Origin: a virus
Reading direction: 5' to 3' (one strand)
Virus record (IMG/VR): IMGVR_UViG_3300010354_000333
Location: 1 to 32,249 of that record
Length of the DNA stretch: 32,249 bases
The notes under the pieces are model-generated. The model worked only from the letters and a program-made list of their open reading frames with translations, ran no database searches and was not told where the DNA came from. Made by a program: the position numbers and the translations under genes. Below, piece after piece: positions 1,057 to 32,249 of this stretch. Position 1 is the first letter of the stretch. Each line of letters begins with the position of its first letter.

Positions 1057-1908
1057 TTAGCGCATTGCACTTAAATTTCGCGACATATCTCCCATACGAC
1101 TATCTGGACCTGAAATAGGAGCACTCATCCATTTGTCAATTTTCTTCTGAAGTTCCGTTTTGTCTTCAGTTTTTTCAATTTCTTGTTGGTGACTACCAAC
1201 AGCATGTATTAAGTGTTTTACTAACTTAACCATTTCAATTGCTTTACCAATCAAGGCTGTAGCTCCAATTGCGATAGACACCAAGGATGTCATGGATGGG
1301 AAGGATATAATAGCAATTGTTGCCATAAGTAACACAAACAACATCATTCCAACTATTCCAAATACTTTTTGAGTTTTTTCACCACCACCCCATTTTGCAG
1401 CCAACCATTTAAAAAACCTCTCTATTGCTTTTCCAGCAAAGCCTGCAACTGCTCCTGTGTTTTTGAGCATTGTTTGTACTTTCTTAAACCCAGCTTTTAC
1501 ATCTGCCTCGTTTTTTCCTGTTATTTTAGCAAGACTGTGTGCTAGCACTTCAATAAGAGCTGCATTACCTAGAACGTCGCCTGCTGCGTGTGCAACTGTT
1601 GCAATTGCTCCACCACCTTCTTTGAGGTATTTACGACCTTCTTGTACCTTTTGCTCTAACTCTTTAACATCCGATGCGTCTATTTTATTCAAATTACCAT
1701 TTGCATCAAGAAGCTTTGATAATAGTGCAGCTTGTACCTCTTCGTCTGTTAAATCCAGACCGGTAGCTACTACTTCGTCACCTAATTTTTTAAGTTCACT
1801 GCCTACTGATTGAGCTGTTGCTGTAATTGTCTCAACTATTCTTTGTGTTCGCTGCTCTTGTAAGATACGATAAGTAAGTTGTGCTAAGCTAATGGTAGGC
1901 CTTTTCAT
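1057..1908 (-). CDS. Putative membrane protein with a head-targeting-like N-terminus
   Basis: 283 residues from the ATG at 1908-1906, which overlaps the upstream stop as TGATG; a TTG one codon earlier is less likely. The N-terminus MKRPTISLAQLTYRILQE is basic and hydrophobic and ends in L-Q-E, like the capsid-targeting tags of other proteins here. Residues 20-150 look helical. Residues 151-175 (AVAGFAGKAIERFFKWLAAKW) are amphipathic. Two hydrophobic segments follow, about 182-203 (VFGIVGMMLFVLLMATIAII) and 205-225, then a charged tail. It sits between small head proteins and the scaffold gene. I recognise no family. A virion-packaged membrane-active protein released during DNA ejection is one possibility; a host-membrane anchor for head assembly is another. 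Both are inference. Confidence 0.75.
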   Translation of the reverse strand: MKRPTISLAQLTYRILQEQRTQRIVETITATAQSVGSELKKLGDEVVATGLDLTDEEVQAALLSKLLDANGNLNKIDASDVKELEQKVQEGRKYLKEGGGAIATVAHAAGDVLGNAALIEVLAHSLAKITGKNEADVKAGFKKVQTMLKNTGAVAGFAGKAIERFFKWLAAKWGGGEKTQKVFGIVGMMLFVLLMATIAIISFPSMTSLVSIAIGATALIGKAIEMVKLVKHLIHAVGSHQQEIEKTEDKTELQKKIDKWMSAPISGPDSRMGDMSRNLSAMR

Positions 1909-2297
1909 CAATCAATAATGTCGTTAAAATTAACAAAAACATCTATGTTATCAGGTTGCACTGTTACAACCATTCCCTTACTGTTAATGCTTTTTAATTC
2001 ACCTTGGTTGCTAATAAAATCAGCGTTGTTATATTTTTTAACTTTACCTATATTAAACTTAATAGGGTACTTTAAGTCTGGTTGTTCTTTGGCATCTGTT
2101 GTTTCTTCGTCATCAGCTCCACTACTAGCATCAGCATCAGGCTCTTCTGCACTAGCATCAGCACTTGCATCGGCCTCCTCGTCACCACCTCCTTCACCAC
2201 CTGCTGCAGCAAAGGGATTGGCTGCTGCCTCTTCTTCATCTCCCTCTGCTTCGCGCAAAGGAATTAGATCTTTAAGCTTTATCACATTAAAGTTCAT
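1908..2297 (-). CDS. Small acidic head-associated protein with PLRE tag
   Basis: 129 residues from the ATG at 2297, which overlaps the upstream stop codon. A GTG at 2285-2283, just after that stop, would give MIKLKDLIPLREA, aligning better with two other tagged proteins here (MKLINLIPLREA and MKLKQLVPLREK), so the GTG may be the real start. After the tag comes a long Glu/Asp/Ala/Ser-rich low-complexity stretch (about residues 18-70), then a small C-terminal domain of about 55 residues containing YPIKFNIGKVKKY and VQPDNIDVFVNF. The L-R-E-A junction matches a T4 prohead protease cleavage site. It is likely a head-core or internal protein; the C-terminal domain is unrecognised. Confidence 0.8.
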   Translation of the reverse strand: MNFNVIKLKDLIPLREAEGDEEEAAANPFAAAGGEGGGDEEADASADASAEEPDADASSGADDEETTDAKEQPDLKYPIKFNIGKVKKYNNADFISNQGELKSINSKGMVVTVQPDNIDVFVNFNDIID

Positions 2298-2942: not shown

Positions 2943-3539
2943 TCACATTGCGGATATTATATCGTTAATTAGAGCGTGCACTTTTGCATATCTATCACTC
3001 TTTACTTGAGCTACCGATTCGTTTAGTGGTGACATAAAAGCCCCTTGAGTCGATGGATTGGATACCAAATCCCAACAAACAATCTCAAAGTCATCTTGAA
3101 CTTCTACTTTACCCTCACCTATATTTTTTACACTACCCATTCCACGTGAGCTAATACCTAAGCGAATGCCTGATTTCAAAAGCTCCTTAGCAATGTTGCC
3201 AGATGGTGTGCTAAGTATTTCAATTCTGCCCATAAGATCCTCACCTTCCCACCATAAATCTATGACGTTGTGTGATACATTTTGCAAGTTAACAACTTGT
3301 GAATCTGGATGATCCAGTTCACCTAAGGCTCTACGTTCTTTAATAAAAGTTTGCTTATACTTCTCAGCTTCACGCTTTAATATGTCTTGTGGATACTGTC
3401 TGCCATTTTGATTAGTGGCGTCAGCTCTTTGCATAACTCCAGAGAGAATTACCTTTCCGTTGTTTTTTGCCATAGACTCGTTAATCTGTTCTGGTGTAAC
3501 GGACAGACAACCTATTGAATCTATTAGTAGCGCTTTCAT
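2943..3539 (-). CDS. gp21: Prohead core protease (T4 gp21-like serine protease)
   Basis: 198 residues, close to T4 gp21 (212). It processes scaffold, core and capsid proteins at (L/I)-x-E sites during head maturation and destroys itself. Visible motifs: GELDHPDS with candidate catalytic His76, GISSRGMGSV with candidate Ser131 (or Ser130), and a conserved Asp/Trp stretch VCWDLVSNPST around Asp157; this is the fold class shared with herpesvirus assemblins. The early segment VMQRADATNQNGRQYP is also typical. The enzyme carries candidate self-cleavage sites, I-N-E at 19-21 and L-N-E at 172-174, which would trim both ends. It lies in the T4 order between portal/core genes and scaffold. The assignment is firm; the exact third catalytic residue is not. 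Confidence 0.93.
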   Translation of the reverse strand: MKALLIDSIGCLSVTPEQINESMAKNNGKVILSGVMQRADATNQNGRQYPQDILKREAEKYKQTFIKERRALGELDHPDSQVVNLQNVSHNVIDLWWEGEDLMGRIEILSTPSGNIAKELLKSGIRLGISSRGMGSVKNIGEGKVEVQDDFEIVCWDLVSNPSTQGAFMSPLNESVAQVKSDRYAKVHALINDIISAM

Positions 3540-9322: not shown

Positions 9323-9988
9323 TTAGTAAACTTTCTTATACGATAACATTTTTGGTTCGTGAAGATACTCTAACGCATCAAAACCAAAATACTTTGCTTT
9401 ATATTGAGCTTGTGCATACTCATCGTAATCGTATTCACGATCAAAGTACTCTTTTAGATTTAAGTAAGCTTCATGCCAATTTATTTGCAATAAAAATTTT
9501 TCACATAAATTTATATGACTCTTGTATTGCTCAAAATCATGAAAGTCGTGTTCTATGTGCATGAGCTCAACTACCTTTTCTTCTTTAATGTAGTCAACAC
9601 AAAAATCAACCATGTACTTAGGTTTAATGTTGAGTATTTTAACCAATCTTGGATACTTCTTGCTAAGGCGAGTGAGCTGTTCAAGCGCAGCTCCTTTGTA
9701 AGCGTATCTAGTATTAAGGTGACAGTGATCCAAAAATACATGAGGGTCTGATTTTTCTTGTATCATCCAATCTTGAATGCAGGCTGCTGCATCTGTTGGA
9801 CTTCCAGGTACTAATACGTGTCCTGGTATGTTGTTGTGTTGATGGTATAGGCTTTCGATAAAAGTTAGTTCATAGCCAAATCTATCAAAAAATTCAGGAG
9901 CCACTAATCTGTCAAAGACAGACTCATCGGGTAGTGGCTCACTTATATAAGGATGGGGGACTAGCTTATACTCTAGTATCTTGAACAT
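9323..9988 (-). CDS. Conserved phage protein of unknown function
   Basis: 221 residues, no membrane segments and no leader tag. Striking motifs are VFLDHCHLNTRYAYKGAALEQL, then a Lys-rich stretch ending KILNIKPKYMVDFCVDYI, and a C-terminal aromatic, acidic region (FDREYDYDEYAQAQYKAKYFG). I recall similar proteins with a DHC...Y.G.ALEQL segment in marine T4-like phages, always as hypotheticals. Clustered His, Asp and Cys residues might bind metal, but no known catalytic motif is complete. The ATG at 9988 overlaps the stop of the previous gene by one base, indicating translational coupling. Confidence 0.8.
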   Translation of the reverse strand: MFKILEYKLVPHPYISEPLPDESVFDRLVAPEFFDRFGYELTFIESLYHQHNNIPGHVLVPGSPTDAAACIQDWMIQEKSDPHVFLDHCHLNTRYAYKGAALEQLTRLSKKYPRLVKILNIKPKYMVDFCVDYIKEEKVVELMHIEHDFHDFEQYKSHINLCEKFLLQINWHEAYLNLKEYFDREYDYDEYAQAQYKAKYFGFDALEYLHEPKMLSYKKVY

Positions 9989-10395
9989 TACTTTTGGTCT
10001 TCAATAACCTTAAGGAAGTTTGTTTGTGCAGCACCAAAGTTCTTTTTATCTTTGTTGTCAAATGGAATACGCTCAATTTGACCATCCTTCTGCTTCATTG
10101 CACACACAGTTGCATCAAAACGCTCAAGACCAGTTAGAGTGTAAACAATACCAAAGATTGCTGTTTTTTCTGTGATCTTGGCAACAAGCTTAGCATCGCT
10201 TATGATCATATCCAGCCAACCAAAATGAGTAACGTCTGCTACAAAGATGTGCTCTTCACTTTTAGTTCCTAAAAACTTAAATAAAGGCTTGTATCCATGA
10301 GCTGTTTGAAATTCACGGAAGTATGGAGTAGCGATCAACTCTGGTGAAGTTGGTTCGTCCGCTTCTCTTAGTGGTATTAGATTGATTAGCTTCAT
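9988..10395 (-). CDS. Small protein with PLRE head-targeting-like tag
   Basis: 135 residues beginning MKLINLIPLREADEPTSPE. The first 12 residues nearly match those of two other proteins here (2297 and 12995), and the L-R-E-A junction fits prohead protease cleavage. The body is a mixed alpha/beta domain (FREFQTAHGYKPLFKFLG, EEHIFVADVTHFGWLDMII, TAIFGIVYTLTGLERFDATV) that I do not recognise. Mature packaged form would start at Ala12. It lies 11 bases after a 26-codon ORF and ends overlapping the next start. Confidence 0.8.
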   Translation of the reverse strand: MKLINLIPLREADEPTSPELIATPYFREFQTAHGYKPLFKFLGTKSEEHIFVADVTHFGWLDMIISDAKLVAKITEKTAIFGIVYTLTGLERFDATVCAMKQKDGQIERIPFDNKDKKNFGAAQTNFLKVIEDQK

Positions 10396-10738: not shown

Positions 10739-11752
10739 TTACTTTTTAAGCCGCTTAATTTCTTGCAAAACGGCTTTGCGAATAGCTTTACGTAATTTTT
10801 GTTCAGCTATAGTGGGTACTCCTTGTTGCAGTTGAGCAACTGTGTTTTTTTGACCTCCAGGCACGTCATCTGCTTGAGGCATCACACCACGACCTGGTGC
10901 ACCTGCCACTGGTTGTGATGTAGACTGCATTGAGCTTACATTTCCCCAAATATAGTCGGCAATTTTTTCTTTGCTCTCTAACTGTTTTGCTTTTTTAAAA
11001 GCTTCTATGACTGCTGGATCGGTTATGGTACTTATAACGTACTTCTTTAGACCATCCTCATTCATTTGAAGCAAGTTTTTTCCTTTTACACTTTGACTTG
11101 GAATTTTGGAAGCTCCCGCAGCAACGATCGCCAATTGGGTAAGTTTTAATGCATCTAACGGATTTTTGATATCCGGATTTGTAAAATTGTAAGCTACAAT
11201 TTTTGCATCCTTATTCATTGCGTATAGTTGTGACCAACGGTGGTGGCCATCCACAATGTATTTTCCATTAAAAACAATAATAGGAGCAGCAACCTTTACA
11301 CTACCACCTTTAAGTGCATATGCCGCGGCATCAGGTTTAGTTAGTGGAAATGCTAAGCTTTTATCTACGTCAATTTCGTTTTGTGTTGGTATTAAAGCTG
11401 TCACAGCAATTGCTGTAAGGTTTACAGTTGACTTTGTTGCGTCTGCATCCTTTACAAACTGCCTAAACTTAGGATCTGCTGTGAATTTGCCTAATGCTGC
11501 TACAAATCCTGGGTAGTTTTGCTTAAAAATAATTTTAAGTTTTTTGTCGAAGTCTTGTTCCTCAGCTTCTTTGATGAATTTTTTAAATTTCATGTCTGTA
11601 ATGTTGTTAGTATTTTCTTTAGCGTTGATATGTAAGGCTGCCATATATTTACGCAAAGCTTCTTTGTTGCCAGCAGTAGCACCAACACGCTTACCAGTGT
11701 CTTTTTTATACACTACATACTTGTCTCCTTGTTTTTTAACTTTGTATGGCAT
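10739..11752 (-). CDS. ParB-like (Srx-fold) domain protein
   Basis: 337 residues from the ATG at 11752, eleven bases downstream of the previous stop; a GTG at 11818 would overlap that gene by 56 bases and is less likely. Residues 1-50 are a small basic domain (MPYKVKKQGDKYVVYKKDTG). Next comes MKFKKFIKEAEEQDF at about residue 54, an apparent capsid-targeting leader with an I-K-E-A junction; its Met (codon at about 11593) may be a second start. The central domain has IIVFNGKYIVDGHHRWSQLY, the GHHR signature of ParB/sulfiredoxin-like domains, which bind or cleave nucleotides or DNA. The C-terminus is Gln/Pro/Gly-rich and ends in a basic helix (KLRKAIRKAVLQEIKRLKK). Substrate unknown. Confidence 0.8.
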   Translation of the reverse strand: MPYKVKKQGDKYVVYKKDTGKRVGATAGNKEALRKYMAALHINAKENTNNITDMKFKKFIKEAEEQDFDKKLKIIFKQNYPGFVAALGKFTADPKFRQFVKDADATKSTVNLTAIAVTALIPTQNEIDVDKSLAFPLTKPDAAAYALKGGSVKVAAPIIVFNGKYIVDGHHRWSQLYAMNKDAKIVAYNFTNPDIKNPLDALKLTQLAIVAAGASKIPSQSVKGKNLLQMNEDGLKKYVISTITDPAVIEAFKKAKQLESKEKIADYIWGNVSSMQSTSQPVAGAPGRGVMPQADDVPGGQKNTVAQLQQGVPTIAEQKLRKAIRKAVLQEIKRLKK

Positions 11753-11762
11753 CTTCTTTATT

Positions 11763-12203
11763 TTACCACTTTCTACATGACCAATAGCGTGCTTTCCATC
11801 TAGGACCTGGTGTGGCACAACGATGTCTAGCTCTAAATGATTTGCGTCTTTTTGGGTTGGATTTTTTTATTTTCATATTAGGATCGCCAAAGTTTACTTT
11901 AACAACTTTGTCGCCCTTCTTAACATACACTTTGAATTTTTTAACATCACCTCTCATAGGCTTACCAAGTGGCACATTGCGTCCTTGGTATTCAGCTTCT
12001 GTCATTAAGATTTTGCCAGCTTTGATGTCTTCTAGTAGTGCGATTGCACACTCGTTGCACATACTAATTTCGTTTGCAGCATTTATTTTTTTTGCAGCTG
12101 CTACAGCTTTGTTATATTCTTCTGAGCCTTTTGGCGCTGGTTTTTCACCACGAGCTCTTTTTGCTCTGATGTTGTGCCAAAGTCCTTTTGATTGCTCACG
12201 CAT
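11763..12203 (-). CDS. Conserved basic head-cluster protein
   Basis: 146 residues; overlaps the upstream gene by 8 bases. The N-terminal part (KGLWHNIRAKRARGEKPAPK) and helix with Cys49-x2-Cys52 are followed by ILMTEAEYQGRNVPLGKPMR, then a small beta-rich domain KVVKVNFGDPNMKIKKSN and a very basic tail with SFRARHRC and RWKARYWSC. I recall the second half as a widespread T4-like phage family in which an (S/T)-E-A-E-Y-Q-G-R junction resembles a prohead protease site. Four Cys (49, 52, 129, 143) may bind metal or be structural. The basic tail suggests contact with DNA inside the head. No enzymatic role is evident. Confidence 0.8.
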   Translation of the reverse strand: MREQSKGLWHNIRAKRARGEKPAPKGSEEYNKAVAAAKKINAANEISMCNECAIALLEDIKAGKILMTEAEYQGRNVPLGKPMRGDVKKFKVYVKKGDKVVKVNFGDPNMKIKKSNPKRRKSFRARHRCATPGPRWKARYWSCRKW

Positions 12204-12693
12204 TTATCTTCTCAATATTTAATTTAAGCTGATGTAACTCACTATTACCTATTTGCTCGATAGTCTGTTGTGTATCATCTATCCAGTTTTCTTTTACACC
12301 ATCTTCGGTGTACACTACTGTTTTCTGCTTTGCAAAATCTTTCACAAATTGCTCTAAGTCATCGTACATAGACTCCATGTTTGCTTTGTATAGAGCATTT
12401 GTATATTCCTCCAATTTACCAGCTTTTGTGATTTCATGCTCCATATCAACAACGCAATTAAAACACATACGGTACGTGTTCCAAGCCCACTTATGCACTT
12501 GACTTTTCATATTAGGTACTTTGCATTTTGGACATGCAATTGGTGTAATAATTTGTTTACGGAGCGATTCCATTTTAGTAACGGTCTTTTTTATACCGTT
12601 TTTTATAGTCCAGGTTTTACCCGACTCTTCCCAGATATCCCCCTCTTTATGCTCTATAAAAGCTTTTTTTTGCGATGTAACGTGATAACTCAT
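12196..12693 (-). CDS. Zinc-ribbon protein of unknown function
   Basis: 165 residues. A probable zinc ribbon is formed by Cys54-x2-Cys57 (CPKCK) and Cys77-x2-Cys80 (CFNC). Before it lies a segment with WEESGKTWTIKNGIKKTVTK, and after it a helical acidic region. Similar short zinc-ribbon proteins occur near head and neck genes in T4-like phages, with no assigned role. The ATG overlaps the end of the preceding gene by 4 bases and its end overlaps the next gene, so it is translated as part of a tight operon. Confidence 0.8.
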   Translation of the reverse strand: MSYHVTSQKKAFIEHKEGDIWEESGKTWTIKNGIKKTVTKMESLRKQIITPIACPKCKVPNMKSQVHKWAWNTYRMCFNCVVDMEHEITKAGKLEEYTNALYKANMESMYDDLEQFVKDFAKQKTVVYTEDGVKENWIDDTQQTIEQIGNSELHQLKLNIEKINA

Positions 12694-12995
12694 CTTGATT
12701 GATATTTGTATTTAGTCAATACATTTTGTATTTGTTTGTCAAACCTGCGTAATGCTCTACGCAACTCTAACCTAATACCTTCGTTAATTTTTTCTTCTTC
12801 TGATCGATCAGACACTCCCCTATAGAACTCTTTACCACCAGTACTACTAATACTAATTGTAAAAGTTGCTTCTGGTGATCCTGTTTCACCTACTTCATTA
12901 AATCCCTTGTCAAAGTGGAGTGTTATGTTTGTTGTTGGTGAAGTGGCTATTGCCTCTTTTTTTTCTCTTAAAGGAACTAGTTGTTTTAGTTTCAT
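12690..12995 (-). CDS. Small protein with PLRE head-targeting-like tag
   Basis: 101 residues beginning MKLKQLVPLREKKEAIATSP, the third copy of the K-L-x-x-L-(I/V)-P-L-R-E leader in this window. The rest has a beta-rich middle (ATFTISISSTGGKEFYRG) and a basic helical C-terminus (IRLELRRALRRFDKQIQNVL). No family recognised. The ATG lies 3 bases after the stop of the three-domain protein. Candidate packaged internal protein, by inference from the leader. Confidence 0.75.
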   Translation of the reverse strand: MKLKQLVPLREKKEAIATSPTTNITLHFDKGFNEVGETGSPEATFTISISSTGGKEFYRGVSDRSEEEKINEGIRLELRRALRRFDKQIQNVLTKYKYQSR

Positions 12996-12998
12996 TTG

Positions 12999-15422
12999 TT
13001 AAAATCTTAAATATCCTAATATTTGATTGATAGGTGCAAATGCTCCGGTTAGCTTATAAAGCTTTCCCTTATACTTAAATACTAGACCTTCCGTCGGAAC
13101 AATGGCATCAAAGCCACCAATATCTTTTAATCTCGTTAATTCGCGTTTTAAAAACTTTATTGCAGCGTCTGCATCTTCTATTGTTTCTGTATCTGCTGCT
13201 CGTTGTATTCCTCGAATTGCTGCCGATACGTCTTGTTTAACTTTCAACTTTGCTTCATCGGGACTAAGTGTTGTTAGGTTTTCGATGTTTCGTAAAACTC
13301 GTACTCCTAATTTTAGGAAGAGCAATTCAACTGGCTTGAGTGCTATTTTTTTTGTGGGCTCTACTTGCGTCTTGTCAAAATCTACCATCCACGATGTAAA
13401 CGCTTGATCTTGTATCTGACTTTTAATGTCAGTTATTTTTGTCGACTTATCAGTGAATGCCCAACGCTTTACTAGTCCGTCCAACACTTCTGTTGGTATT
13501 TTGTAGTTCAACTCAGTACTCTTTTTTTTGATAAAAGCCGTCCACCAATTTTGCACATAGTCTTTTACAGTCTTATCATCGCCTAAATTATACTTTGTTC
13601 TGATCTTATCTACTTCAGCTGTGAATTGCTTTAATTGGTTTGGTAGATCTAAATCTGCTTTTAGTTTTGCCGGGTCTGTTGTTTTTATTGTAAAAGTTTT
13701 TTGCTGATTTGCTTGTATTACGTCTAGTGCTTTTTGCAGTTCGTATATACCAGCCACATCCTCATCTTGTACGTTTCCATTTATATCAAAGGTTTTAAAG
13801 TGATGTAGCCTTAGTTGAGCTGCTCCGTACGGTATTACATTTGCTGTTTCAGGAAACAAAACTTCTAGACTAATAAACTTTTTTCCATTTTCAAAAAATT
13901 GCGCTTTTTGTTGTGGATTAAGTTTATTCATTGCTGTTTCTAGATCATTCATTGTTTCTACAAATGCCGTTTGTATTGGTCCACGACCACTAAACATTTT
14001 AGAAATTTGATCCGTTGTTAAGCTGTTTTCACCGTAGTTTTTTACTTGACCTTTATTTCTTGCTGCTCGTATGTTACCATCCTTGTAGGTAATCATAAGA
14101 TTTTGGCCATCTAACTTTTCTTGTGCATACTCCAATTTACCACCTAATGCAGCTTCAATCATTGCTTTAATTTCCTTAAAAGTCAAGTCTAAATCTTCAT
14201 AAGGATGAGCTAAATGGCCAGCAGCTCCTCCTTCCATTAAAGGTGTGGCTGGTTCATTTGAGTTTAACACGTTTTGTGTTCGTATTTTAGCTGTTGGATG
14301 TTTTGTTTTTAGTTGATCAACTGCTGCTATATTTTTTGGTGAATCGTCTAAAAAGTAGATATCATCGTACCCTTGTAATATTTGTTTCTCTATCCAGCTT
14401 GATTTTTTATATGGATCACTACTTCCAACAGCAATTACTGGCACGTTAATTCCAATTGTTTTTAAATAATCGCTGACTGCTTTTCCATCACTTCTAGCAG
14501 TTAATACTACTACCTTACGATCATCCATCGATGCATTAAGCATACGTTTCATTATGCTTGTATACTTTTTTAACTCAGTAGCTGATTTAATTGGACCTTC
14601 AAATTCACTAAAATCAAACACATCACCTTCATCCGGTTGGTACACTGCGTACTGTGCCGGTGTCATTGTGATTTTTTTTCCTGTGATTTTTTTTATTATG
14701 TGTATTTTGCTTGTGGTTTGCACAAGAGTATCATCAAAATCAAAAACTCTTAGCTTACCTTCGTCTAAGGTCTCTTTAGCGTTTTTTTTTAAAAGATCAA
14801 ATATCTTATCAGTTACTGCTTTGTCTGCTACGTTAGGGTAGTTTGTTGCAAAAGACTCTTTGTCGTTATTTTTTAAATCAGCTCTTAGTACGCTTGCGCT
14901 AATTCCTTTTCCATTCTCACTCTTTCCTGGAACGTATTTAGCTGCTTTTTCTGATCTGTTCTTATATGTGATAGGTGATGAATCGAGTGGTAACTCTCTT
15001 ACAAAGATTTCCGGTCTAGCATATTTACCTTCAGTGTGTCCTTTAACAAACTCCTTTACTCTAGCATAATCCTTATCTTTTGAACTAGCTGCTAATGCAT
15101 AAGTTCCTGGTTTTGCAGTTTCCATATACTTGTATGCTGCTGCTAAAGGACTGTTAACTTCTGTTTGTTGAACTAGAATCTTTGGTTCGTTTTTGATTAA
15201 CTCACGCCATACAGCTATGCTCTGTTCTCTGGTAATGCCATCACGAGGTTCTGGACCTATTAATACGATTACTTGCGATACTGTTGGTTCGGTTGCATAT
15301 CGTTTTGCTAATTCAAAATGACCACCATGTGGTGGTTTAAATCCTCCAGGAAATAGTACGACAGTTCCTTCGCTCATTTCAGTTAGCAAAGACTCAACTA
15401 AAAAATTACTAAGACTACTCAT
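12999..15422 (-). CDS. Three-domain nucleotidyltransferase / HAD phosphatase / ATP-grasp-independent ligase protein
   Basis: 807 residues in one frame. Domain 1 (about 20-215): HIGH-type nucleotidyltransferase, GGFKPPHGGH at 26-35 and ISASVLR at 174-180, as in NMN or cytidylyl transferases. Domain 2 (about 222-390): HAD phosphatase with DFDDT at 228-232, VVVLTAR at 304-310 and FLDDSPKNI at 357-365, as in polynucleotide 3'-phosphatases. Domain 3 (about 400-807): covalent nucleotidyltransferase/ligase with EKLDG (Lys436), RNKG at 455-458, ISLEVLF (Glu520), EGLVFK (Glu778) and KLYKL (787-791), which match ligase motifs I, Ia, III, IV and V; about 220 residues separate III and IV. The N-terminus MSSLSNFLVESLLTE resembles a capsid-targeting leader. 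A nucleic-acid (perhaps RNA) repair role is inferred; substrates are unknown. No P-loop kinase is present, so it is not a standard Pnkp. Confidence 0.88.
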   Translation of the reverse strand: MSSLSNFLVESLLTEMSEGTVVLFPGGFKPPHGGHFELAKRYATEPTVSQVIVLIGPEPRDGITREQSIAVWRELIKNEPKILVQQTEVNSPLAAAYKYMETAKPGTYALAASSKDKDYARVKEFVKGHTEGKYARPEIFVRELPLDSSPITYKNRSEKAAKYVPGKSENGKGISASVLRADLKNNDKESFATNYPNVADKAVTDKIFDLLKKNAKETLDEGKLRVFDFDDTLVQTTSKIHIIKKITGKKITMTPAQYAVYQPDEGDVFDFSEFEGPIKSATELKKYTSIMKRMLNASMDDRKVVVLTARSDGKAVSDYLKTIGINVPVIAVGSSDPYKKSSWIEKQILQGYDDIYFLDDSPKNIAAVDQLKTKHPTAKIRTQNVLNSNEPATPLMEGGAAGHLAHPYEDLDLTFKEIKAMIEAALGGKLEYAQEKLDGQNLMITYKDGNIRAARNKGQVKNYGENSLTTDQISKMFSGRGPIQTAFVETMNDLETAMNKLNPQQKAQFFENGKKFISLEVLFPETANVIPYGAAQLRLHHFKTFDINGNVQDEDVAGIYELQKALDVIQANQQKTFTIKTTDPAKLKADLDLPNQLKQFTAEVDKIRTKYNLGDDKTVKDYVQNWWTAFIKKKSTELNYKIPTEVLDGLVKRWAFTDKSTKITDIKSQIQDQAFTSWMVDFDKTQVEPTKKIALKPVELLFLKLGVRVLRNIENLTTLSPDEAKLKVKQDVSAAIRGIQRAADTETIEDADAAIKFLKRELTRLKDIGGFDAIVPTEGLVFKYKGKLYKLTGAFAPINQILGYLRF

Positions 15423-19969: not shown

Positions 19970-22900
19970 TTAACATCTAATATAACTCAACTCATCTTTA
20001 CGATCAATTGTTATAATGCTATCGACCATGTCGCGAACAACATCTATATGGCTTATTACTAAGTTAAACTTAAACATATCCTTTAAGTGATTAAATAGCA
20101 TATGCATTGAGTTGAGGTTACTGCTATCTAATACACCCAATCCTTCGTCAATAGCTATAAAATTTGGTTTTGGTAAATTTGTAATCTTTATCAACGCTAC
20201 TCTAATTGCAAGTGAGCTTATAAATCTTTCCATGCCTGATGCCAATTCAAGTGGCCACTTATTATCATCGTAGTTAATGTACACGTTAATGTTTTTACCA
20301 TCCGTCTCTATTTCTACTGTAAAGTCGACTACTTGGCCAAGTATATTATTGACTTGTGCTTGTAAATATGGAATTGCTTTGCTTATTAACGCGTAGGGTA
20401 TTCCATCGCGACAAACAGCTTTTAGATAGTATTCATATGCAGTTTGCTTTTCAGAAAGTTGCTGCATGTGCTCTATATTTTTTTCACATTGCTGAATCGT
20501 TCCTTCACTTACTTTTATCTTACCATGTATCTCCTGTAATTTTTTTGATATGGCTTCTGCTTTACGTTTTTCTTCAGTTAGTTCAGTAGTTAGCTGATTT
20601 ATTTGTGCGTTAAGTTCCTTGTTGTATTTGATGATTGATAAGTTATCTTCGTATACTTTTATTTGATTTTGAGTTTGTTGTAGACTGGTTTGGTAAGCCT
20701 CTAGTTGGCTTTTTATTGACGTATGGTTTGCTTGTTGCAACTGCAGCTGCTGCTCTAGTTGAGATAGCTTGCTTTGCTCTTGTTTTAGCTTTTCGTAGTT
20801 GCTTTGCACCTGCTGATTATCAATTAGATATTGCTCAACAGTCTTTCTTTGTGTGAGAAATTCTGCTATTAGCTTTTTGTCATTTTCTAGTTCTTCTTTT
20901 GTTTTAATAGCATCTTTTACAAAAACATTTGAGGTACAATACTTGCAATTAGGATCATACTCATGCTCTTCTAACTTAGTTAGTTTATCTAGTTTTGCTG
21001 CTATTGTTAACTTGTAATGTTGTAGTTTTTGATCTAAGTCACTTTTATGTTTTGCTTTTGTTGATAGTTCGCTATATGCAATGGATAGCTGTAATTCATC
21101 ATACTGCAACATTCTATTAGAACACTCCTCTATTTCGTGTTGCAGCTTCCCCACTCGTAAATCGCATTTAGTAAGCTCTGATTGCTTTGCTGCAATCTCT
21201 TGTTCTTTTTTTGTTCGTTGTGCATTCAAACTATTAATATCTAACCCCTCTGCTGCGTTTGGTTTTATATCTTTAGCTAGTTGCAATATTTGCGCATTGA
21301 TTTTGTCTATCAAGGTTGTTTGATTTGCTTGATTTAGTTCTTGATCTATATAGGACTTGCTGTTGGTGTCTAGTGCACTTTGTGCGTCTCCCAGTAGTGT
21401 TTCAAAGTCTTGTTTCTGATACTCTTCTAAAAGGATTGTTGTTGTTTTTATCTCTTTATTTGCTGTGTCATATAGTGTGTCAAAGATTTTTAAATCAAGA
21501 AAGTTTGCAAGTAAATCCTTTCTCTCTCCCTGGGTCTTCTCAATGAAATTGGAATTGTTTCCTTGCAAAGATAGTGCTGTTAGAATGAAGTCTTCAAAGG
21601 TTCCAACATAGCTTTGTATGATTTTATCCGTGTCTCTGCGTTGTTCTCCATTAAGAGACACTTGCTGCCCTTCTTCATTAGTATACCAAAAATTTATATC
21701 AACTCTTAGCTTTCCTGCTAACGGACCCTTGGCGTACCTTGTTGCTGTTTTTTCAATAAAAAAATCAGTTCCATTGATCTCAAAATTAAATTTACACCAA
21801 AAGTTATCCTTTTTTCTGTTTAAAACTTGTTCAGCTTTACTTGCTCTGAATGAGTGATCAAACAAGCAAAAGCATAAGGCATCTAGTATTGCTGATTTTC
21901 CTGCGTGATTTGGTGCAAATAAACCACAAGTACCATTTAGCTTATCAAAGCTAACTACATTACCTTCTCCATAGGAAAACATATTGCTAAACTCAAACTG
22001 CTTTGGACTCCAAGCAACGTTTCTCACAATCTCTGCTCCTGCTATGGATTGATTTAATCCCTTGTTAATATCTAAAATTTTTGATACTAACTCGTCATCT
22101 AAATTGAACTGAGTAATGTAGTCGACTATGAGTTTGGATTGGTAATCCACACTACGTACATCTATATTACCAAAAGATTCCTCTACTTCTAGCTGAGCTA
22201 TTCCTTTGGTTTTATCTAGGTTATTTACTATAATATCGCTGTTTTTGTAGACTTTACGTATCTCTGCTAACACTTTTTTTATTTGTGCTGGTGTCGTGTT
22301 TGTTGTTTTTAGCCTAACATTTGTTCGTTGTGTAATAGGTAAATTTGATGGTAAGATTCCTTGATCTATTTCAAGTGTGAAGTACCCGTATTCATTTGGT
22401 ATGTCAAAAAACTCAACAGTAAGGTTGTTGCAGTCTACTATTGCGTAACCATGTCCTTCGTAAGATTCTCCGAAGTTTTGTTGCACTGTACTGCCTGGAT
22501 AAAACATTAGTGGGTTGCTTTCACACAATACCTGTCTTTTGTGAATATCACCTAGCAATACCAGGTCGTGTCCTGCGAAAATGTCCCAGTCAAGTCCGTG
22601 AGCTATGTTCATGCCACTATCTACTTTACTGTTTGCTATAGTACCATGATACATGCCAATTAAGCACTTCCTTTTTGTTTCAATTTTGTCTGCTGTTTTG
22701 TACTTATCCGAGGAATCTAGCAAGGACATTACGTTGATTAGCACATCTCCTATTTTATGCACACCTGAGTCTCTCAGGTAATATAGGTTTGGATGATTTT
22801 TTGCTTCTACAATTGGTGTTAATGCATCTAATCTGTTATTGTTATTAAGGTTAGTATCGTGGTTTCCGCAAATAACTACCGTGGGTCTTATGTCAGCTAA

Positions 22901-23137
22901 CCCATACAAAAGGTAAGATACCATGTGTATTAGCTCTGGACTCATGTCTGTTTTAGCATGAACAATGTCGCCACCAATAGTAATGATGCTGTTAGTTGGT
23001 AGCTGTTTTGCTGCTTCAAATAATTTGTCAAACACAAGCTTAAACTCCTTATGTCTTTTCCAATTGCGAATGTGCACATCAGCTATGTGCAGTATCTTAT
23101 CTACAGTTTTAAGCTCTGATTTTATTTTATTTATCAT
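19970..23137 (-). CDS. Fused Mre11-Rad50 (gp47-gp46 / SbcD-SbcC) recombination exonuclease
   Basis: 1055 residues in one open frame with no frameshift. Residues 1 to about 365 are the Mre11/gp47 phosphoesterase: DVH at 20-22, GGD at 55-57, GNHD at 91-94, HGT at 164-166, GHD at 189-191 and GDIH at 196-199, so every metal-binding motif is present. From about 375 the Rad50/gp46 ATPase begins: Walker A APNHAGKS at 408-415, helical arms about 560-890, zinc hook CKYC at 731-734, signature ASGME at 966-970 and Walker B FIAIDEG with Asp997-Glu998. In T4 the two are separate genes that resect DNA ends for recombination-dependent replication and host DNA breakdown; here stoichiometry is fixed at 1:1. 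The ATG overlaps the primase stop as ATGA. Confidence 0.95.
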   Translation of the reverse strand: MINKIKSELKTVDKILHIADVHIRNWKRHKEFKLVFDKLFEAAKQLPTNSIITIGGDIVHAKTDMSPELIHMVSYLLYGLADIRPTVVICGNHDTNLNNNNRLDALTPIVEAKNHPNLYYLRDSGVHKIGDVLINVMSLLDSSDKYKTADKIETKRKCLIGMYHGTIANSKVDSGMNIAHGLDWDIFAGHDLVLLGDIHKRQVLCESNPLMFYPGSTVQQNFGESYEGHGYAIVDCNNLTVEFFDIPNEYGYFTLEIDQGILPSNLPITQRTNVRLKTTNTTPAQIKKVLAEIRKVYKNSDIIVNNLDKTKGIAQLEVEESFGNIDVRSVDYQSKLIVDYITQFNLDDELVSKILDINKGLNQSIAGAEIVRNVAWSPKQFEFSNMFSYGEGNVVSFDKLNGTCGLFAPNHAGKSAILDALCFCLFDHSFRASKAEQVLNRKKDNFWCKFNFEINGTDFFIEKTATRYAKGPLAGKLRVDINFWYTNEEGQQVSLNGEQRRDTDKIIQSYVGTFEDFILTALSLQGNNSNFIEKTQGERKDLLANFLDLKIFDTLYDTANKEIKTTTILLEEYQKQDFETLLGDAQSALDTNSKSYIDQELNQANQTTLIDKINAQILQLAKDIKPNAAEGLDINSLNAQRTKKEQEIAAKQSELTKCDLRVGKLQHEIEECSNRMLQYDELQLSIAYSELSTKAKHKSDLDQKLQHYKLTIAAKLDKLTKLEEHEYDPNCKYCTSNVFVKDAIKTKEELENDKKLIAEFLTQRKTVEQYLIDNQQVQSNYEKLKQEQSKLSQLEQQLQLQQANHTSIKSQLEAYQTSLQQTQNQIKVYEDNLSIIKYNKELNAQINQLTTELTEEKRKAEAISKKLQEIHGKIKVSEGTIQQCEKNIEHMQQLSEKQTAYEYYLKAVCRDGIPYALISKAIPYLQAQVNNILGQVVDFTVEIETDGKNINVYINYDDNKWPLELASGMERFISSLAIRVALIKITNLPKPNFIAIDEGLGVLDSSNLNSMHMLFNHLKDMFKFNLVISHIDVVRDMVDSIITIDRKDELSYIRC

Positions 23138-24077: not shown

Positions 24078-24485
24078 TTATTTTTTCTCATTCAACCACT
24101 CTTGTGGTATAGTTTTATCTGCGTACATAAACCCATGTTTTTTACACCAGTTTGCGTACGTTGTTGGTGATCCTTTTCTAATTTTGTTTTTGGAATTTTG
24201 AAATACAAATCTAATGTCTAGTTCCGGATGTTGCTGTTTAATCAGTATATGCTTTTTTCTATCTGCTAGAACAAACCTACCTTTTGTTTCTATAAAAATT
24301 CCATTGGGAAGACGGAAATCTGGTGTGTACTCGTGGTGTGATATTGGTATTGTGTATAGTACTTTGTGTTGTTCATACTGTCCATCAATTCCTTCTTGCT
24401 TAAGGATAGCATCAACTGACTCCTCTAAACCACTTCTATAACCTTTATGCCTTGCAATTTTAATTGTAACTTTTTTTTTACTCAT
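24078..24485 (-). CDS. Endonuclease I, Holliday-junction resolvase (T7 gp3-like)
   Basis: 135 residues against 149 in T7 gp3. It resolves branched DNA and four-way junctions before packaging. Similarity to the T7 enzyme as I remember it is very high over KGYRSGLEE, YTPDFRLPNGIFIETKGR, RKKHILIKQQHPELDIRFVF and KGSPTTYANWCKKHG. The catalytic residues align with T7 Glu20, Asp55, Glu65 and Lys67: here Glu21, Asp56, Glu66 and Lys68, all present. The start overlaps the stop of the 537-residue structural gene as TAATG. T4 itself uses the unrelated gp49 (endonuclease VII) for this step; none is visible here. Confidence 0.95.
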   Translation of the reverse strand: MSKKKVTIKIARHKGYRSGLEESVDAILKQEGIDGQYEQHKVLYTIPISHHEYTPDFRLPNGIFIETKGRFVLADRKKHILIKQQHPELDIRFVFQNSKNKIRKGSPTTYANWCKKHGFMYADKTIPQEWLNEKK

Positions 24486-27984: not shown

Positions 27985-30900
27985 TTATTTGAATTCAAAA
28001 TTTCCTTGAGATGATGGTTTAACTTTTATACCAAAAGTCGGCTTATCTGATTGTATTATAGTTACCACAGGACCTTTATCTATTGTATCCGGGCTATCTT
28101 GGTTGAAATCTGGTGATGTTAATTTACATCCACCGTATTTCAAATTAAACAATCCTTTTGATGCGTATGGTCCTACATGCCAATCTTGTACTTGCGCTGG
28201 TGGTTCATATATTCGATCTACTGTGAGTAAATCAAACGCTAATACAATTTGACCACCACTAGTAGTAATATTAGCTGCTGGCCTGAATCTTAGGCCTAAA
28301 TCGTAGTAACCCCCTACGTATGTTTTATCGTTTAAATTTTGACTTGCAATATAATTTTCGTAAATTCTTAGTTGGTTATATGTTAGCTCAATTTGCACTG
28401 TTTCCCCTGGTATTAGTGGTATACTTGTTTGTATTGGTTTGTAGTTAGTATCAGAGCTTCCAGTTACTGTGTTTGGTGTGTATAAGTCGCAAAATCCCGT
28501 TAAGTCTTGCGTACGATAAAACCCAATATCATTTTCTATAGCTGTAGGTCCTCCAATTGATCCATATAAATTAACCTCACTTATCCAAGCTACTCGTATT
28601 TTTATGCGATATTTTGTATAGAACCTTTCTTTTTTTGTTGCTGCTCTTGGTAACCCAAATACCATATTAGGGCGGCCGTGCCAAAGGCTTGATGTAACTA
28701 AAAATCCAGCTGGTGATGGACTGTAGCTGGTATCACCCGCTAAGGTTGGGTCATCACCAGTCCAACACATTAGTATTGGTGTTACTGTAGAGCTATAGGT
28801 TCCATACACAGCACCAGGAAATGTCGTTGTTGTTACTTGCCAAAAACTTGTAGTTGGTGGCATATCATATATTGCATTTGTAAAGCCAGCATTACCATTT
28901 TGGTTACTAAATGTTAACGGTGTGTTAAATCTAACCCTAAAATTATTTAAAGTTAGTTGTGTTGCAGCTCGAGTTGTTGGATTAACTATATTTCCAATTT
29001 GCCATCTACTGTCATCTGGTAATCTGTTGGCGGTTTTATTTGGCCTTCCTGGTGCTTTAAGTCTCCACTGCTCTGTTGGGTCTACGTAATTATCTCCATA
29101 TATTATGGAGTGTGATACTAGTGGATCTACAATTGTTGTCACTGGTACAGTTGCACCCTCTCCTACTCCCATTGGTCGCCAACGAGATGTTATATCTGTT
29201 GAAATTTGTTCGTACTCTTGTGCCGTTATTGATCCGTTACTTGGATACTCTGCTAGAAACTTAGCAAATGTATTATACCCACCTATTAAGTTTCCTTGGT
29301 AATCAGGTACATCCATATAGTTGCTTATATACCTTTCGGTCATAATGTCAGAAAACTTGTGATTGTCACTTTGCAATCCAATTGGGTTGCTATAATCACT
29401 TCTAACGCTAGGTACTGATATAAAATCAGCTGAGTTTGATACTAGGCCATATCCTGTATATACGGTTGGATCTGCAACTGGTCCTACCCACGTATAGAAT
29501 TGATACTGCGATGCTTTAATCCCTGCATACGCTTGTATTGTGTCTTCTAACGATTCTTTTTGCCGAATTGGTGCACCATCAACATAGGTTAGCTGATCTT
29601 TAGTACCTTGTGAGGTTATGGACTTGTTGTTGTATTCATTAACTTTTGCCGTTGTCACATAGAGCTCACGATCTTGAAGCACTACCTCGTGTTGTTTATA
29701 TTGGGTACCTATAACAACGGTTTCTGACGGTATATCTATGCCTTTATCGAAGCTTGTTGTAAACTCATCCTTATCCATTTGCACTAAGGTAGTTTCGGCA
29801 CTCACACCCCTAGTTCTTGTTAAGTCAATTCCACTATCGTTTATAATAGTAGACGGATCTGTGTCAGGTTCTACTATCAGCGTATCAGCACTTATACCCC
29901 TAGTCCTTGTTAAGTCAATTCCACCATCGTTTACAGTTGTAAATGGATCTGTGTCAGGCTCTACTATTAGCGTATCAGCACTTATACCCCTAGTCCTTGT
30001 TAAGTCAATTCCACTATCGTTTACAGTTGTAAATGGATCTACATCTGGCTCTACTATTGTGGTATTAGCACTTATACCTCTAGTTCTCGTTAAGTCAATA
30101 CCTATTGGATTATAATACTTATCTGCTTCATTTGCTGATAACCATTTTTGTAAACTTTTAGCGTAGGATTTGCTATCATTAGATCCACTTGCTATGAGTT
30201 GCTCTACCCGATCTCTAGTTTGTGTAAGTGGATTATCGTAATATTCTCTTTTAGGCTTTCCAGTATAAAACTCACCATTACTTCTTACGTGGTAAGTTCC
30301 TCGATAGATCTGTCCAGTGCTTTTGAGCAGTAAAACGGGTTGAACGCCATCATTACTTCCTTTTGTATAATAAAAATTATCGTAGGGTGATGCAGCTGAG
30401 TTACCTACTTTAGTCACTGACACCTCTCCACTACCTCTAACATAAAAAAATGGTCGTTTTATTTCAATACCATTAGTAAAGGCTGTTGTAAATGGATCTG
30501 TATCCGGTTCTACTATTGTAGTGGTTGCACTAATTCCACGTGTTTTAGTTAAATCAATACCCTCTGCAAATGCTCGAGTGAATGGATCAGTATCTGGTTC
30601 CACTATCGTTGTATTGGCACTAATTCCACGTGATTTAGTTAAATCAATACCATCTGCATATGCAGTAGTAAATGGATCAGTATCCGGTTCTACTATTAGC
30701 GTATCAGCGCTTATGCCTCTTGTTTTAGTTAAATCTATCCCATCTGCATATGCAGTAGTAAATGGATCAGTATCCGGTTCTACTATTGTAGTATTAGCGC
30801 TTATACCTCTCGATCTTGTCAGATCAATTCCATATGGATTGTAATACTTGTCAGCTTCGTTTCCAGTTAACCATCTAAACAACGCTTTAACGTATAAAGC

Positions 30901-32249
30901 TGCGCTATCACTACCACTAGGTACCAGCTCTTGTATTCTTCTCTTTTCTCCCGTAATTGGATCATTGTAGTATGCACTACGAGCTCTTCCTGTAAAGAAT
31001 CTGCCTTTAGGTGTAACGTGGTACGGACCTCGGTATACTTGCGAAGTTCCTTTTATTACGTATGCAAATTGATTTGTTGATGATTTTTCTCCTTTAGTAT
31101 AAAAAACTTCATCGTAAGGTGATGCAACCGAGTTACCTACTTTAGTTACATTAACCTCTCCTGTGCCTTTTGGTGAAAAACCACGTAAACTAACGCTAAT
31201 ACCTTTAGCATATGCCGTAGTGAATGGGTCCGTATCTGGCTCAATTATTAGGGTATCAGCAGTTATACCTCTTGTTTTAGTTAAATCTATTCCATCAGCA
31301 AAAGCCTTTGTAAAAGGATCGGTGTCAGGTTCTATTATTGTTGTATCAGCACTAATTCCTCGAGTTTTACTTAAATCTATTCCATCAGCAAATGCGCGGG
31401 TAAACGGATCTGTGTCAGGTTCAACAATTATTGTATCCGCTAATAAGCTTCCTTGTGGAAATAATTTTATGCCGTCTGGAAGCCATGTTGTGAATGAATC
31501 TAGATCAGGTTCAATAATAGTAGTTTCAGCAGTTACATACTCATTAGGTATTGTCGGTATGCCATCAGGAAACCAGATTGTAAAGTCGTCTGTGTCTGGT
31601 TCAATGGTTGTGGTATCCGCAGTTATATTATCATCTGGGACAATTGGTATGCCATTTGGAAACCAGATTGTGAAATCGTCTGTATCTGGTTCAATAATGC
31701 TAGTGTCTGCTGTAAGATTATCGTCCGGAACAATTGGAATTCCATCTGGGTACGCTGTTGTAAATGAGTCCAGATCAGGTTCAATTATTAACGTATCCCC
31801 AGTAGGCTCATACACTGACGGTAGCGGTAGTAGGCTTTCGTAAGTGTCATCTTCAAACGTCGGTCTTCGTGCAACTCGTACTTTACTTCGCGTCAGTAAA
31901 TCTGATTCAATCACCAATCCAGTTTGCAAATTTGCACGATGTGGTACAATATTTTTTATGATATTGTATATTGAACCGTTAAAATATTGTAAAAGTTTTA
32001 TGTAGTTTTGTGACTTATTTCTTCCTGTTAACTTTTTAACATATTGTTGTTTTAGTCGAACTAAACTTGTATAACTTTCGTTATAGATATCCTCGTATCG
32101 GCCTATAAAATCATCCAAACTAAGACCACCAAATTGCTCAGCTATATCCTGATTTACCTCATCAGTTGGTGATAGGTATATTCCTAATCGTGGACTATCT
32201 ACCGGTTGATCGTCTTGTAATGACTTTTGTATTTTCAAGTCAAATTGCA
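27985..32249 (-). CDS. Giant repeat-containing virion protein, N-terminus outside window
   Basis: At least 1420 residues; the frame is open to the right edge and no ATG lies near it (the first start-like codon is a TTG at 32238), so the gene is 5' truncated. Residue numbers here count from that TTG. Residues 1-130 include LGIYLSPTDEVNQDIAEQFG and a helical stretch. Residues 147-835 hold 15 units of exactly 30 residues around (I/V)-E-P-D-T-D-P-F-T, interrupted by two copies of a ~115-residue module. Residues 850-1417 are beta-rich with no exact repeats. There is no signal peptide, enzyme motif or membrane segment. Repeat-bearing giant proteins at this position are likely tail, baseplate or fibre components; acidic units could bind Ca2+, which is inference. 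Confidence 0.8.
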   Translation of the reverse strand, partial: QFDLKIQKSLQDDQPVDSPRLGIYLSPTDEVNQDIAEQFGGLSLDDFIGRYEDIYNESYTSLVRLKQQYVKKLTGRNKSQNYIKLLQYFNGSIYNIIKNIVPHRANLQTGLVIESDLLTRSKVRVARRPTFEDDTYESLLPLPSVYEPTGDTLIIEPDLDSFTTAYPDGIPIVPDDNLTADTSIIEPDTDDFTIWFPNGIPIVPDDNITADTTTIEPDTDDFTIWFPDGIPTIPNEYVTAETTIIEPDLDSFTTWLPDGIKLFPQGSLLADTIIVEPDTDPFTRAFADGIDLSKTRGISADTTIIEPDTDPFTKAFADGIDLTKTRGITADTLIIEPDTDPFTTAYAKGISVSLRGFSPKGTGEVNVTKVGNSVASPYDEVFYTKGEKSSTNQFAYVIKGTSQVYRGPYHVTPKGRFFTGRARSAYYNDPITGEKRRIQELVPSGSDSAALYVKALFRWLTGNEADKYYNPYGIDLTRSRGISANTTIVEPDTDPFTTAYADGIDLTKTRGISADTLIVEPDTDPFTTAYADGIDLTKSRGISANTTIVEPDTDPFTRAFAEGIDLTKTRGISATTTIVEPDTDPFTTAFTNGIEIKRPFFYVRGSGEVSVTKVGNSAASPYDNFYYTKGSNDGVQPVLLLKSTGQIYRGTYHVRSNGEFYTGKPKREYYDNPLTQTRDRVEQLIASGSNDSKSYAKSLQKWLSANEADKYYNPIGIDLTRTRGISANTTIVEPDVDPFTTVNDSGIDLTRTRGISADTLIVEPDTDPFTTVNDGGIDLTRTRGISADTLIVEPDTDPSTIINDSGIDLTRTRGVSAETTLVQMDKDEFTTSFDKGIDIPSETVVIGTQYKQHEVVLQDRELYVTTAKVNEYNNKSITSQGTKDQLTYVDGAPIRQKESLEDTIQAYAGIKASQYQFYTWVGPVADPTVYTGYGLVSNSADFISVPSVRSDYSNPIGLQSDNHKFSDIMTERYISNYMDVPDYQGNLIGGYNTFAKFLAEYPSNGSITAQEYEQISTDITSRWRPMGVGEGATVPVTTIVDPLVSHSIIYGDNYVDPTEQWRLKAPGRPNKTANRLPDDSRWQIGNIVNPTTRAATQLTLNNFRVRFNTPLTFSNQNGNAGFTNAIYDMPPTTSFWQVTTTTFPGAVYGTYSSTVTPILMCWTGDDPTLAGDTSYSPSPAGFLVTSSLWHGRPNMVFGLPRAATKKERFYTKYRIKIRVAWISEVNLYGSIGGPTAIENDIGFYRTQDLTGFCDLYTPNTVTGSSDTNYKPIQTSIPLIPGETVQIELTYNQLRIYENYIASQNLNDKTYVGGYYDLGLRFRPAANITTSGGQIVLAFDLLTVDRIYEPPAQVQDWHVGPYASKGLFNLKYGGCKLTSPDFNQDSPDTIDKGPVVTIIQSDKPTFGIKVKPSSQGNFEFK
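29740..30099 (-). repeat. 30-residue tandem repeat block 3 (four units)
   Basis: Four 90-base units encoding variants of G-I-D-L-T-R-T-R-G-(I/V)-S-A-(D/N/E)-T followed by x-(I/V)-E-P-D-x-D-P-F. Three are close copies; the last is degenerate (LVQMDKDEFTT). Within this block the post-FT segment is TVNDSG or close to it, unlike the AYADG of block 2, so units resemble their block neighbours most. Confidence 0.88.
30100..30444 (-). repeat. Inserted ~115-residue module, copy 2
   Basis: Contains GSGEVSVTKVGNSAASPYDN, FYYTKGS, QIYRGTYHVRSNGEFYTG, a charged stretch with a YYDNP motif, and WLSANEADKYYNPIG. It matches copy 1 over its whole length and interrupts the 30-residue array exactly at a unit boundary. 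The core Y-x-G-x-Y-H-x6-G-x-F-x-T-G resembles a short module I recall in many phage structural proteins. Confidence 0.85.
30445..30828 (-). repeat. 30-residue tandem repeat block 2 (four units)
   Basis: Four near-identical 90-base units with consensus GIDLTK(T/S)RGISA and IVEPDTDPFTTAYAD. DNA identity between units is high, including runs repeated exactly such as gtaaatggatcagtatccgg (plus strand), indicating recent duplication or gene conversion. Confidence 0.9.
30829..31188 (-). repeat. Inserted ~115-residue module, copy 1
   Basis: Contains GTGEVNVTKVGNSVASPYDE, FYTKGE, QVYRGPYHVTPKGRFFTG, YYNDPITGEKRRIQELV and WLTGNEADKYYNPYG. It is homologous to copy 2 at 30100-30444. Both copies enter the array after a unit ending in GI and leave it at a GIDLTR unit start, so module plus adjacent repeats probably duplicated together. 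Confidence 0.85.
31189..31800 (-). repeat. 30-residue tandem repeat block 1 (seven units)
   Basis: Seven units of exactly 30 codons. The first four are diverged (IIEPDLDSFTTAYPDGIPIV, TIEPDTDDFTIWFPDGIP and similar), the last three are close to the block 2 type (IIEPDTDPFTKAFADGIDLT). Period is strict, with no insertions or deletions, so spacing seems structurally constrained. Confidence 0.9.

Follow-up and report, generated by a model that had tools for sequence, protein, structure and literature searches.

Described systems and the window protein

The T4 prohead protease gp21 cuts after Glu in the motif L/I-X-E (PMC9026906). The gp23 propeptide is 65 residues long (PMC5694885) and gp24 is cut at position 10 (PMC9958956), and at these positions the T4 record reads FLTE↓AEIG and LLRE↓STTT, respectively, both of which fit L/I-X-E (arrows here and below mark a cut or a proposed cut). 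The T4 internal head proteins IPI-III and Alt, which bear a capsid-targeting sequence and are gp21 substrates, resemble the protein described here in having a short leader ending in L/I-x-E, an S77 protease of the gp21 type and a gene in the head/packaging operon; however, T4 head proteins lose terminal propeptides, whereas members of the present family chain several enzyme domains with intervening sites, and the modules are shuffled between phages. Polyvalent proteins (Iyer et al. 2017, PMC5512222) carry 2-15 disparate domains per polypeptide and are predicted to be injected with the DNA, and the window protein likewise joins two or more domains of disparate activity in one polypeptide. Processing of polyvalent proteins is predicted to occur by embedded zincin-like peptidases, which PMC5512222 calls likely, not obligatory, whereas the sites of the window protein match a separate head-maturation protease. 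Term searches of the main text of that paper returned no passage on a HIGH nucleotidyltransferase, and RNA ligase is mentioned in the passages matched only as not associated with 2H domains.

Among the closest described systems are genes of cyanophage S-SM1 and Pelagibacter phage HTVC008M, which share nucleotidyltransferase (phrog_395), kinase and KOW modules with the present family and have a ligase-like DUF6267 gene next door, but in which these are mostly separate genes. Mass spectrometry of S-SM1 virions detected 41 proteins, including a putative 'citidylyltransferase', T4-GC190 (PMC3037559). T4-GC190 is SSM1_190 in the S-SM1 record; its N-terminus, MKKFSAFLNEA, is a T4-like leader, its HIGH domain is matched by the family nucleotidyltransferase profile (33.7 bits), and phrog_395 is common to it (5.9e-129) and the window protein (2.3e-7). 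Its homology to the window protein is distant and limited to a single domain, and the head operon does not include its gene. In HTVC008M, the kinase (177 bits) and KOW (31 bits) modules are separate neighbouring genes, and the kinase gene starts with MIPFILKEGLYDPGIFK, which shows the LxE↓G..DPGI border also seen ahead of the kinase within polyproteins, so that gene borders and module borders are interchangeable. The literature searched (most subscription papers being outside its scope) described neither such a family of polyproteins nor a prohead protease that processes polyproteins, and reported neither cleavage nor virion detection of the window protein or any member of its ligase family.

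The window, that is, the whole stretch of DNA analysed here, is a 32,249-base virus record with one uninterrupted 807-aa ORF, from which a tailed phage living in water appears to produce a single head-addressed precursor of three nucleotide-handling enzymes (Table 1). A preliminary description of this DNA had placed all signature motifs in a single 807-residue frame, which we confirmed, adding the strand (minus), and its identification of three domains likewise held. The nucleotidyltransferase carries GGFKPPHGGH (HxGH type: HGGH) and ISASVLR, and residues 19-219 matched phosphopantetheine adenylyltransferase (PPAT) chains with a Z score of 14.7 (2.7 Å over 158 residues). The HAD assignment draws on the DFDDT/LTAR/FLDD motifs and a match to PHROG 415 (phrog_415, E 1.5e-8). 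Structure prediction, which the preliminary description had proposed as a check, returned the nucleotidyltransferase fold and a ligase fold with RNA-ligase matches, but the HAD part of the full-length model was weak (pLDDT about 50-80). The window protein gave no match to a P-loop kinase, and none to a peptidase domain in Pfam or PHROGs.

Table 1. Features of the window protein and related genes in the window (positions in the window; residues of the 807-aa protein)
Feature	Position	Strand	Basis or remark
Whole ORF: leader, HIGH nucleotidyltransferase, HAD and covalent ligase-like domain	12999..15422	-	Proposed polyprotein precursor, 807 aa
MSSLSNFLVESLLTE, residues 1-15, proposed capsid-targeting leader	15378..15422	-	Ends in LxE (LTE at residue 15); also LVE at residue 10
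HIGH-superfamily nucleotidyltransferase, PPAT/NMNAT fold, residues 19-214	14781..15368	-	Motifs, fold, PHROG match
LDE↓G, residues 219-222, proposed protease site nucleotidyltransferase/HAD	14757..14768	-	Model pLDDT <50 at 215-236
HAD-like phosphatase domain, residues 222-387, exchangeable cassette	14262..14759	-	DFDDT, LTAR, FLDD
LME↓G, residues 395-398, proposed protease site before ligase	14229..14240	-	Model pLDDT <50 at 383-403
RNA-ligase-like covalent nucleotidyltransferase domain, residues 398-807	13002..14231	-	Constant C-terminal module of family; Lys436 = predicted nucleophile
Helical insertion, ligase motifs III-IV, residues 593-773	13104..13646	-	Family-wide
Next gene, leader-like N-terminus MKLKQLVPLREK	12690..12995	-	
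Gene with leader-like N-terminus MKLINLIPLREADE	9988..10395	-	
Gene with leader-like N-terminus MNFNVIKLKDLIPLREAEG	1908..2297	-	
Prohead core serine protease, Peptidase_S77, T4 gp21 type, proposed processing enzyme	2943..3539	-	E 1.7e-29; phrog_207 E 1.3e-57

The ligase-like domain and its shuffled partners

The C-terminal domain carries EKLDG with Lys436, RNKG, Glu520, EGLVFK and KLYKL, which cover motifs I (KxDG), Ia, III, IV and V. Two structure alignments were used, of 46 and 50 sequences; in the former, E435, K436, D438, G439, R455, N456, K457, E520, E778, G779 and K790 were invariant among the 46 aligned relatives. Because PDB sequence searches with the window protein and with ligase profiles gave no ligase match, folds were needed for the assignment, and because the fold search with the full-length model listed mostly the nucleotidyltransferase, the ligase domain was folded alone. 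This model (alignment of 50 sequences) reached a pLDDT of 93.2 and a pTM of 0.89, and RNA ligases (T4 Rnl1, archaeal RNA ligases and Naegleria Rnl) topped both of its fold lists, with a modest Foldseek E value of 4e-3 (prob 0.92) against T4 Rnl1, a Foldseek prob of 0.97 against an archaeal RNA ligase, and a Z score of 9.2 (4.0 Å) against the Naegleria RNA ligase, in which only ~184 of 413 residues were aligned. Judging from the lengths, the unaligned remainder is mostly the helical insertion. The core fold and motifs I, Ia, III, IV and V are thus shared with these RNA ligases, whereas the large helical insertion between motifs III and IV sets the window ligase apart from them; the preliminary description had considered a ~220-residue insertion at this place unusual, and the helical stretch is real but present throughout the family rather than special to the window protein.

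Family databases gave faint signals for this domain. The ligase module scored 14.6 bits against Pfam RNA_ligase (PF09414), under the curated cut-off of 27, a weak match to the same entry was seen in 33/50 family members (best E 0.0012), and an NCBIfam search returned nothing useful and no name for the ligase part. Against DUF6267 (PF19782), hhalign gave a probability of 0.4% with a 4-sequence profile, too low to show homology, although motif I of both was in register in the aligned stretch, and the DUF6267-type protein of locus L006 had no match to the ligase profile. As a separate observation, L006 (4764-6956) represents a parallel lineage in which the same nucleotidyltransferase is fused to DUF6267 (E 1.1e-69), and its linker repeats the start of neighbouring genes, INEKFSDESDPVQDMGIG. 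In S-PM2 (L090, 2998-4777), a single DUF6267-nucleotidyltransferase protein seems to have been split between two reading frames, S-PM2p141 and p142, the latter starting with the end of DUF6267.

With the whole window protein as query, tblastn against 50,697 phage records found no relatives beyond three records, namely Microcystis phage Mel-JY01 and two uncultured huge phages. A ligase-domain profile search of viral contigs returned at least 585 relatives among at least 599 matched stretches, and the best 80 of these relatives were kept. The family set gathered with the ligase profile comprised 85 distinct proteins, L007 (same contig as L005) and L087 (the window itself) having been dropped beforehand. 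A scan of genome contigs added six loci (L094-L099), all on short contigs from metagenome-assembled genomes whose six titles are unrelated (the labels include Bacillus, Pelagibacteraceae, Flavobacteriales and Euryarchaeota); these are probably misbinned phage contigs whose labels say nothing firm about the host.

Modules were mapped with 18 seeds, their borders being drawn by the analyst from the seed sequences. KOW, POLB, DGP, TM, W3, PSPS, COL, FAV and X53 are our own labels, and one shuffled module of the relatives carries the name DUF5872, which we take to apply to it. Pfam backed the kinase (Zeta_toxin/AAA_33), NUDIX, Zn_protease (one relative, L027) and ParB_N modules, ParB_N below its cut-off. 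The ligase was C-terminal in 85/85 proteins, and the nucleotidyltransferase was present in 64/85; among the 46 proteins closed at the 5' end, 43 had it. These 46 proteins showed 20 architectures and lengths from 421 to 1543 aa (the longest member, L096, with 1907 aa, was found later). Nucleotidyltransferase and ligase are the constant pair, with other modules swapped in and out: upstream modules (kinase, NUDIX, KOW, Pol-beta-like) were shuffled among relatives, KOW and kinase occurred in both orders, the DUF5872-like module stood at several places, and NUDIX was found in 3/85. The preliminary description had suggested a database search for the domain order of the window protein; in the family, HAD was found in 4/85 proteins (the window protein, L041, L043 and L005, the last a remnant without DFDDT). 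P-loop kinase was present in 15/85, none of which has HAD, and the window protein has no kinase; the comparison drawn earlier with the kinase and HAD set of T4 Pnkp therefore does not carry over. The kinase had also been described as 'replaced' by the nucleotidyltransferase, yet the P-loop kinase module sits beside the nucleotidyltransferase in other members, so that nothing is 'replaced' in the family.

Leader, protease and motifs at domain borders

The leader of the window protein (residues 1-15) ends in SLLTE and conforms to the rule of 10-20 aa with L/I-x-E. A common leader pattern, MxxL[ST]x[WYF][LI][VTA] (with L allowed at the aromatic place), was found in 23/46 closed proteins, where it heads five kinds of first module (nucleotidyltransferase, KOW, kinase, DUF5872-like and W3). 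LxE occurred at residues 8-26 in 40 closed-5' members, including chance hits inside the nucleotidyltransferase in L021 and L028, and 6/46 closed-5' proteins start directly at the nucleotidyltransferase with no leader (L019, L021, L022, L024, L028 and L079). Neighbouring genes in the window have similar starts (MKLKQLVPLRE, MKLINLIPLRE and MNFNVIKLKDLIPLRE), too few for statistics. In one further window gene (10739-11818, minus), the listed GTG start is probably wrong, and an internal ATG gives a T4-like leader, MKFKKFIKEAEEQ, followed by a ParB-like DGHHRW domain; in L002, a polyprotein of this kind begins with a fused ParB_N-like domain.

The S77 protease gene lies 9.5 kb downstream of the window ORF, and the window also encodes a T4-type portal (E 7.6e-66) and a T4-type terminase, all three on the strand of the ORF. 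Among 20 loci chosen by the analyst out of 87, Peptidase_S77 was found in 15/20 relatives' records, the five without it being fragments of 17-48 kb. It was on the same strand in 15/15 and 6-12 kb downstream in 13, while in two huge phages it was about 18 and 39 kb away; the place of the family gene in the head/packaging operon is conserved.

Only four places among the 807 residues of the window protein have L/I-x-E with A, G, S or M as the next residue, namely 10, 15, 221 and 397, which correspond to the leader and both domain borders. The full-length model had a pLDDT below 50 only in two long stretches (Table 1), which contain sites 221 and 397, and in three short stretches inside the weak HAD; residues 1-8 of the ligase model (LMEGGAAG) were also disordered. 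Across the family, 149 of 239 junctions remained once those >70% alike over the last 15 residues before a module of the same kind had been left out; where a gap exceeded about 45 aa, the count was confined to the 25 residues nearest the following module. [LIVMF]xE was present at 134/149 non-redundant junctions (0.90), compared to 0.21 inside modules and 0.56 in shuffled junctions, and [LIVMF]xE[AGSDN] at 107/149, compared to 0.04 and 0.21, respectively, counts that are related by descent and so not phylogenetically independent. Little or no junction excess was seen when D, K, N or S took the place of Glu after [LIVMF]x, and in 15/149 junctions either the hydrophobic residue was missing (xxE) or a clear site was absent. 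Per 100 aa, [LIVMF]xE[AGSDN] occurred 2.39 times in linkers, 0.24 times in modules and 0.62 times in other ORFs of the loci. Module cores were depleted of [LIV]xE[AGS], with 27 seen and 82 expected from shuffles, the corresponding controls being 115/102 for D, 175/197 for K and 45/73 for Q (seen/expected).

The site before the ligase stood at one fixed place in 74/85 proteins, with L (53) or I (21) at P3, ten kinds of residue at P2 and always G at P1', in agreement with the L/I-X-E rule of gp21. The fixed site lacked Glu in the other 11 (LLLMGG in nine, LLLCGG in L077 and another sequence in L002), and these had LxE elsewhere in the examined junction stretch. All twelve kinase junctions (9 distinct) read [LIV]xE↓G, whether after a leader or internal. 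A small two-part protein of the window (11763-12203, minus), which matches several PHROGs of unknown function, has GLWHNIRAKR near its start, RKSFRARHRC near its end and LMTE↓AEYQGR between the parts.

Competing readings and possible function

Because the borders between domains resemble protease sites, the mature products are probably the individual domains as separate proteins. We consider it likely that the window ORF encodes a head-targeted polyprotein that is cut by the maturation protease and whose pieces are ejected with the DNA. The leader MSSLSNFLVESLLTE would act like a T4 capsid-targeting sequence and bring the precursor into the prohead core; judging from motif, position and statistics, the gp21-type S77 protease would then cut after Glu15, Glu221 and Glu397, freeing the HIGH nucleotidyltransferase, the HAD phosphatase and the RNA-ligase-like enzyme inside the head. 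The pieces may stay in the virion and be ejected with the DNA, as the virion proteomics of the S-SM1 homologue suggests.

The same leaders and borders might belong to a polyvalent-type effector that is packaged and ejected uncut, the border LxE being a remnant or a scaffold-docking signal; uncut packaged multidomain proteins are known, such as the N4 virion RNAP (PMC5512222), and the likeness of leaders to internal borders would suit docking motifs, but L/I at P3, Glu at P1 and a free P2 are the cleavage rule rather than a generic docking motif, and the depletion of the motif in module cores adds to this, so that we regard an uncut effector as unlikely. Quite improbable, in our judgement, is an intact multifunctional cytosolic enzyme in which nucleotidyltransferase, phosphatase and ligase, joined by flexible linkers, treat broken RNA or DNA ends one after the other. 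The preliminary description had pictured such a trifunctional end-healing enzyme, and the catalytic motifs are indeed kept in all three domains, while HAD plus ligase matches known phage RNA-repair sets (PMC7824862); against it stand the rarity of HAD, one of its four occurrences being a remnant, the protease motif, which is about ten times as dense in linkers as in modules, the N-terminal leader and the conserved place in the head/packaging operon. It had been said that a split protein would speak against this enzyme, and the sequence evidence from the borders goes part of the way. Very unlikely is a head-core filler or scaffold with incidental or lost catalysis: the motif is also a cutting site in T4 core proteins (PMC9026906) and several modules (KOW, DUF5872-like, PSPS) are small and look basic, but ligase catalytic residues invariant in 46 aligned sequences would be unexpected for a filler.

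If the head-targeted polyprotein is cut and ejected as proposed, the enzymes could serve in the host at once as nucleotide or RNA repair tools, for instance by repairing tRNA that defence nucleases of the host have cut, by rebuilding NAD-type dinucleotides, or both, which is the least certain step. Phage kits for RNA repair and NAD restoration have been described (PMC9503650, PMC7824862), and as outlined there the family modules overlap both, the former in ligase, HAD phosphatase, Pol-beta nucleotidyltransferase and kinase, the latter in HIGH nucleotidyltransferase with kinase or NUDIX. Because nucleotidyltransferase and ligase are the constant pair, we favour, tentatively and with more doubt than confidence, a role early on in repairing the damage that host defence does to RNA ends and dinucleotides. 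For T4-type tailed phages more generally, we lean slightly towards a polyprotein strategy like that of RNA viruses, in which the head-maturation protease doubles as processor and shuffled nucleotide-handling enzymes, always ending in an unnamed RNA-ligase-like family, are freed in the capsid and ejected with the genome. This would account for a family that occurs in viral contigs at 585 or more places and whose ligase part lacks an NCBIfam name and matches Pfam only below threshold, and it would mean that the T4 capsid-targeting and protease system delivers whole enzyme sets, probably against RNA- or NAD-directed host defence in the first minutes of infection. L/I-x-E between domains offers a testable rule for finding ejected enzymes in phage genomes, and the ligase family is a possible source of new RNA ligases as reagents.

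Three further ORFs of the window, all on the minus strand, were recorded. A 1055-aa ORF (19970-23137) joins a metallophosphoesterase to an SMC/AAA_23 ATPase, forming an SbcD-SbcC (gp47-gp46 type) fusion; the gp47-gp46-type pair of S-SM1 is two genes. A T7-type endonuclease I (24078-24485, Phage_endo_I E 1.7e-59) sits in an otherwise T4-type head region, and a large ORF (27985-32238) carries, close to its N-terminus, tandem repeats of the TADTTTIEPDTDDFTIWFPNGIPIVPDDN type.
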